Source of the DNA: Fimbriimonadaceae bacterium
GTDB lineage: Bacteria; Armatimonadota; Fimbriimonadia; Fimbriimonadales; Fimbriimonadaceae
Assembly: GCA_023957775.1 (NCBI GenBank)
Contig: JAMLGR010000001.1
Span: 62,001 to 126,000, forward strand
Direction: 5' to 3'
Length of the DNA stretch: 64,000 nt
The notes under the pieces were generated by a model that was not told where the DNA came from, ran no database searches, and saw only the letters and a list, made by a program, of their open reading frames with translations. The translations under genes were made by a program, and so were the position numbers. This document shows, piece after piece, positions 57,180 through 58,160 of this stretch; the first letter of the stretch is position 1, and every line of letters starts with the position of its first letter.

Positions 57180-58160
57180 ATGCGCAGAATACTAGCAGTC
57201 TCCCTGATCGGAGCGGCGGTTGTGGCGTTAGCCCAACGCGGAGCCGGTCTGATCACCCAGTATGTCCAAGCGCTTCAGGGCGGACAGACCCTGAGCGCGA
57301 CCTACACCCTGCAGCGCGTCGGCGGCGCGGCCCGGACGTTCACCATCGATTTCGCAAAGCCCAACAAGCTTCGAATCGAGACTCCGAGCGAACTGACCAT
57401 CGCCGACGGGAAGCAGGTCACCACTTACGACAAGGCCAACAAGACGTACCTCGTCCAGCCGCAGACGACCGAGCAGTTCGCGGGTCTGATCGGCGGCGAC
57501 GAGCTGCGCGTCTGGGCGCCGTTCTTCGATGGCAAGGCGTTCACGAACGCCGCGGCGTCGAAGGACTTGGGCACCAAGAACCGGGGCGGCACGACCCTCA
57601 AGGTCGCCGAGGCCACCCTCGACGCCCAAGGGCGGCAGGTCGTCACGCTCTATCTGGGAAGCGACAACATCGCCCGCCAGGCCGAGCTGATCACCAACAA
57701 CCCCGATGGAAAGGACGTCGTGATTCTCAACACGAAGAGCGTCGCCTTGGGCGGCCCGGCGGGTGACTTCACGTTCACGCCTCCGGCGGGCGCCCGCCAG
57801 CTCACGATCGAAGAGCTGAACGCGGACAAGTGGTACGAGAACCTCGACGAGGCCCTCGTCGTGGCGAAGAACACCAAGCGGTTGGTGTTGATCGACTTCT
57901 ATGCCGATTGGTGAACCTACTGCAAGAAGCTGGACCAGGAGGTCTTCAGCACAGAAGAGTTCAAGAAGCAGAGCAAGTATTTCGTCTTCGTCAAGATCAA
58001 TGCGGAAAAGCAGACCGCGGTCGCCAAGCGGTACGGCGTGTCCGGCTACCCGACCACCGAGTTCACCGATGCCGAAGGCAACGAGATCCACAAGGCGGTC
58101 GGCTACATGCCGGTGGGCGCGTATGTGGGCGAGATGAACAAGGCACGAGGCGCCGGGTAG
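57180..58160 (+). CDS. Putative selenoprotein: LolA-like/thioredoxin fusion with in-frame UGA
   Basis: A signal peptide (RRILAVSLIGAAVVALA) is followed by a LolA/DUF2092-like beta domain (about 25-205) and a thioredoxin domain (about 215-326). The redox motif reads IDFYADW-UGA-TYCKKLDQEVF. The UGA at 57912-57914 (codon 245) occupies the first Cys of CxxC, with the second Cys at 248. The frame then continues 81 sense codons through GVSGYPTTEF, the cis-Pro of thioredoxins, to TAG at 58160. An AGGAG ribosome binding site precedes the ATG. With Sec the protein is 326 residues. If UGA is a stop, a 244-residue truncated protein results. A terminator follows. Confidence 0.72.
57912..57950 (+). promoter_or_regulatory. 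Candidate bacterial SECIS hairpin with in-frame UGA
   Basis: Starting 14 nt after the UGA, GCTGGACC (57929-57936) pairs with GGTC plus CAGC (57941-57944 and 57947-57950). The loop is AGGA (57937-57940) and there is a bulged TT at 57945-57946. The loop lies 22 nt after the UGA and has a G at its second position, within the range described for bacterial SECIS elements. The stem lies wholly within coding sequence. Confidence 0.6.

Follow-up and report, generated by a model that had tools for sequence, protein, structure and literature searches.

A UGA codon almost certainly read as selenocysteine in a predicted LolA-fold/thioredoxin fusion protein of a Fimbriimonadaceae bacterium

The window, a 64,000-nucleotide stretch of a contig from a Fimbriimonadaceae bacterium, contains an open frame that runs from the ATG at 57180 to the TAG at 58158-58160 and is interrupted only once, by a TGA at 57912-57914 (codon 245). 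This TGA is preceded by 244 codons and followed by 81 sense codons, which include the motif GVSGYPT. The sequence-only reading of this DNA, which had interpreted the interruption as a selenocysteine (Sec) codon, gave the frame coordinates, the ADW-TGA-TYC context, the 81 downstream codons with GVSGYPT and the terminal TAG correctly to the base, and the hairpin that it placed 14 nt downstream of the UGA does start there, at 57929-57950. Standard gene callers would either end the gene early, at codon 244, or report it in pieces. The locus comprises the following features.

57180..58160, + strand: whole putative selenoprotein gene; it encodes 326 residues, with residue 245 as Sec, and the stop is TAG
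57180..57236, + strand: predicted signal peptide MRRILAVSLIGAAVVALAQ, read by eye
57237..57812, + strand: predicted LolA-fold/DUF2092-like domain, about residues 20-211, from Pfam and structure matches
57822..58157, + strand: thioredoxin domain, nearest to the DsbD C-terminal domain, about residues 215-326, from PF00085, NCBIfam and structure
57912..57914, + strand: UGA codon 245, first position of the UxxC (U-T-Y-C); TGA, TGC or TGT only in the homologue column
57921..57923, + strand: resolving Cys248 (TGC) of the UxxC, invariant in the alignment
57929..57950, + strand: candidate bacterial SECIS hairpin, core GGACC-AGGA-GGUCU at 57932-57945, loop at 57937-57940

The gene had been described as a LolA-like/thioredoxin fusion, and the thioredoxin part of that description was borne out. 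In the profile search, thioredoxin PF00085 scored 59.5 bits (3.7e-16; gathering cut-off 23.5), and this score, the UxxC with its invariant C248 and the invariant cis-proline P291 place the domain in the thioredoxin superfamily. The stretch behind the TGA matches thioredoxin PF13098 on its own (1.5e-9), so that this continuation, as claimed, is thioredoxin sequence and not a chance open frame. The NCBIfam DsbD model (NF001419) matched at 67.6 bits (7.8e-19), below its cut-off of 330 and through the C-terminal domain only; the fusion has neither the full-length score nor the transmembrane part of a DsbD. The LolA-like part stands as a fold resemblance, its family scores being weak. DUF2092 (PF09865) passed narrowly by its whole-protein score (24.6 bits; gathering cut-off 21.2) with a match confined to residues 55-96, and the LolA models PF03548 (20.2 bits; cut-off 23.6) and TIGR00547 (20.3 bits; cut-off 112) stayed under their cut-offs. 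A structure model built from the alignment (mean pLDDT 92.5, with low pLDDT at residues 1-10) has the LolA half-barrel fold in residues 17-211, which in structure comparison resemble LolA-like 4mxt (Z 17.6 over 180 residues) and E. coli LolA 1iwl (Z 14.4), while residues 215-326 resemble thioredoxins and the DsbD C-terminal domain 2fwe (Z 14.6, 31% identity). Hydrophobic N-termini resembling the signal peptide are present in most homologues in the alignment. The predicted architecture is a signal peptide, a LolA-like fold and then a DsbD-gamma-like thioredoxin. Because the DUF2092 pass is narrow and the LolA scores lie below their cut-offs, we call the modelled N-terminal half LolA-fold, by resemblance, rather than LolA, an identity that would go beyond its weak family scores.

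The source genome, a 3.5 Mb draft in 27 contigs that is 97% complete, encodes all four components of the Sec machinery for which the sequence-only reading had proposed a search. The tRNA-Sec, with anticodon TCA (UCA), scored 76.5 bits and was confirmed by ARAGORN, and profile searches found SelA (505 bits), SelB (365 bits) and SelD (350 bits). The SelD gene (L018, G000:C4:95494-96399; G000 is the window's genome) itself has an in-frame TGA, in VDCAGUATKLG, which would make its product a selenoprotein too. A second thioredoxin-type UGA gene in this genome reads AEW-UGA-PSC (G000:C23:6699-7100; L050:1023-1604) and has an apparent lipoprotein signal, FVIGCG. A third, TDW-UGA-GWC (L051, G000:C1:57425-57745), lies ~4 kb ahead of position 1 of the window; its C-terminal extension is TPR-like in appearance, and its hairpin departs from the G[GU] loop form. 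Among 38 long ORFs picked mechanically from the window, 17 have TGA as their terminal stop, and since UGA ends so many other frames it is not globally reassigned, in agreement with the sequence-only reading.

Of 113 genomes from the same order, 82 have the full fusion and one more has a partial match only. Among named public relatives, three of the top four matches are Armatimonadetes metagenome assemblies, and the top one is labelled Acidobacteria. Alignment of 50 full-length fusion genes from the order agrees with the placement of the UGA at the first cysteine of the thioredoxin CxxC: codon 245 is TGC in 28, TGT in 9 and TGA in 13, and no other codon occurs. Downstream of this codon, where random substitutions had been named as speaking against Sec, C248, P291 and G308 are instead invariant, as are W244 and the Sec/Cys position itself. 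The 13 TGA genes were counted as 12 independent loci because L117 (G089:C15) and L118 (G091:C25) share 3.9 kb at 100% identity between assemblies of two different genera, most likely through contamination of G089, and were merged. G089 also holds a second copy of the fusion, in the Cys form, and in G068 Sec-form and Cys-form copies lie in tandem (L116, L130; G068:C94:112131-114284). The selA gene is present in all 12 independent TGA-form genomes and absent from 30 of the 69 Cys-only genomes (Fisher p = 0.003); homologous sequences partly share ancestry, and the counts in this and the other comparisons are not fully independent. A tree of 49 fusions needs eight Sec/Cys changes, counted without direction, at least four of which are forced by well-supported branches, so the family has repeatedly switched between Sec and Cys.

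Several genomes share a divergent membrane-protein gene (motif GAPDERQHANY) adjoining the fusion, and in several of these, as in the window, pyruvate dehydrogenase E1-type genes come after the fusion; the neighbours were recognised by eye, except the window's E1 alpha. This shared gene place supports orthology of the Sec and Cys forms and has little bearing on function. A gene with the LolA-fold N-terminal half only (query 4-208), lacking a thioredoxin part, is located at G000:C6:117250-117855, and similar genes occur in many relatives. A phage search matched only DsbD-type genes in Salmonella records and so gave no hint that the gene came from a phage.

The published bacterial SECIS model has a loop of 3-9 nt, a stem of 4-16 bp, a G in the first two loop positions, a UGA spacing of 16-37 nt and an MFE of at most -7.5 kcal/mol (PMC13188914). 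With its spacing of 22 nt from the UGA and -9.1 kcal/mol, the window hairpin fits this model. Scoring of the hairpin, which had been suggested as a check, gave a divided result: the comparative test described below was positive, but the window hairpin on its own reached no significance (fold z = -1.40). Applied in full, at the -7.5 kcal/mol threshold, the published model distinguished the UGA genes from the Cys genes only weakly (9/23 against 7/42, p = 0.07), and for this reason a synonymous-recoding test was adopted. The comparative hairpin was defined by a stem of at least 4 bp, a loop starting G[GU] and a position 19-24 nt past the UGA, a range picked after inspection of the data and lying inside the published one. 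It is present in 12 of 13 UGA and 3 of 37 Cys fusion genes (p = 4.5e-8), or in 11 of 12 UGA genes once the duplicate locus is left out (p = 1.4e-7); over the full 16-37 nt range the counts are 13/13 and 17/37 (p = 0.0006). When the UGA genes were synonymously recoded, a mean of 2.3 of 13 had the hairpin and 12 was reached in 0 of 1000 trials, whereas the Cys genes had no excess (3 observed, 4.8 expected). The RNA hairpin is thus under selection beyond the demands of the protein, and in the UGA forms only. The G[GU] form is rarer in thioredoxin-only UGA paralogues (4/10). A second window hairpin, UCUUC-AGCACA-GAAGA at spacing 33, fits the model when taken alone and was set aside, hairpins at 31-37 nt not being enriched in UGA genes. 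An Rfam scan of the hairpin region returned chance-level matches only.

Genomic and comparative evidence, namely the machinery, the Cys/UGA column, the association with selA and the selected hairpin, strongly supports the earlier proposal of Sec insertion at codon 245. Of the checks suggested with that proposal, all those open to computation favoured it. The in-frame TGA is almost certainly read as selenocysteine, giving a thioredoxin-type selenoprotein, predicted to be exported, with a LolA-fold domain. A sequencing or assembly error in an ordinary Cys thioredoxin fusion would take just one C-to-A or T-to-A change from a true TGC or TGT, in a draft assembly of 27 contigs; however, TGA stands at this codon in 12 independent loci, of which 11 belong to other genomes and all lie in Sec users, and the selected hairpin is found in UGA genes alone, so that we regard such an error as highly improbable. 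Equally improbable is a pseudogene in which a nonsense mutation left the LolA-like part standing and the 3' part decaying. The frame is indeed broken by a stop codon, but it carries no further lesion, retains the catalytic Cys248 and cis-Pro291 and encodes beyond the UGA a thioredoxin part that scores independently, and homologues 33-49% identical preserve both the UGA and the protein downstream of it.

Decoding of the UGA by another route, either near-cognate suppression or reassignment to Cys or Trp, is compatible with the sequence taken alone. We give it very little credence, as UGA is an ordinary stop elsewhere in the window, the Sec machinery is present, the UGA forms are restricted to selA-positive genomes, the alternative residue at 245 is always Cys and never Trp, and a SECIS-type hairpin is under selection. 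A selenium-dependent switch at the UGA between two useful products, the fusion with selenium and, without it, a 244-residue LolA-fold protein that stops right ahead of the redox motif, is also unlikely; the shorter product could be functional, because N-terminal-only genes such as that in the window's genome exist.

The selenoprotein explanation as a whole, comprising Sec at 245, export, UxxC exchange and a ligand-binding LolA-fold domain, is in our judgement very probable. SelB loaded with Sec-tRNA(Sec) would bind the short hairpin just 3' of the UGA, and selenocysteine would be inserted at codon 245 to give the 326-residue protein. By analogy with the families concerned, the signal peptide would export this protein over the inner membrane, the U-x-x-C pair of the DsbD-gamma-like domain would carry out thiol/disulfide (selenol) exchange, and the LolA-fold domain at the N-terminus probably has a hydrophobic molecule or a lipoprotein as its ligand, whose binding would take the redox centre to its substrate. 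The protein may thereby act in the periplasm as a selenol reductase attached to a domain that binds lipid or lipoprotein. A DsbD-type membrane domain encoded in the same genome (PF02683, 138 bits) could be its electron supplier.

Selenocysteine in the UxxC of a thioredoxin is of a well-known kind. A 2026 catalogue of prokaryotic selenoproteins places thioredoxin PF00085 (UxxC) before its predicted-families heading and gives the thiol:disulfide interchange protein PF13098 (UxxC) as predicted, and some thioredoxin fusions are included too (PMC13188914). The present fusion is absent from that catalogue, which makes no mention of LolA, lipoprotein or Armatimon* (PMC13188914). Our search of open-access journal papers found none joining selenocysteine, LolA and thioredoxin, and no survey of Armatimonadota selenoproteins, in keeping with the earlier statement that no description of this fusion was known. 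The mechanism is that of ordinary bacterial recoding. As the architecture of a selenoprotein, the fusion appears to be new, judged from the catalogue and the papers searched, and it would be one more domain architecture among known selenoproteins. Within the order of the window's genome, Sec is widely used and frequently switched. The family offers a natural set of about 12 Sec and 37 Cys forms of a single protein, several of them at a conserved genomic position, and is therefore useful for following SECIS gain and loss together with Sec.

The fusion has the same fold as the Sec thioredoxins PF00085 and PF13098 with UxxC, Sec first in the CxxC and a candidate SECIS just past the UGA (PMC13188914), but here the domain is preceded by a signal peptide and a LolA-fold domain. 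Among thioredoxin subfamilies, that of the DsbD gamma domain and the rhodanese/DsbD fusion-like selenoprotein TsoB (NF045694) comes nearest in both score and fold; unlike these, the fusion is without a transmembrane or rhodanese part, and its full-length score falls far under both cut-offs. The Trx7/PDZ domain-containing selenoprotein (NF041199) likewise combines a thioredoxin-type selenoprotein with an extra binding domain, yet it is a CxxU protein in the catalogue (PMC13188914) with a PDZ domain, whereas here a UxxC is joined to a LolA fold and the match reaches 28 bits where the cut-off is 300. LolA itself is without a thioredoxin domain, and the fusion's sequence scores under the LolA cut-offs, but the predicted fold of residues 17-211 is common to the fusion and the LolA and LolA-like periplasmic carriers (1iwl, 4mxt; Z 14-18).
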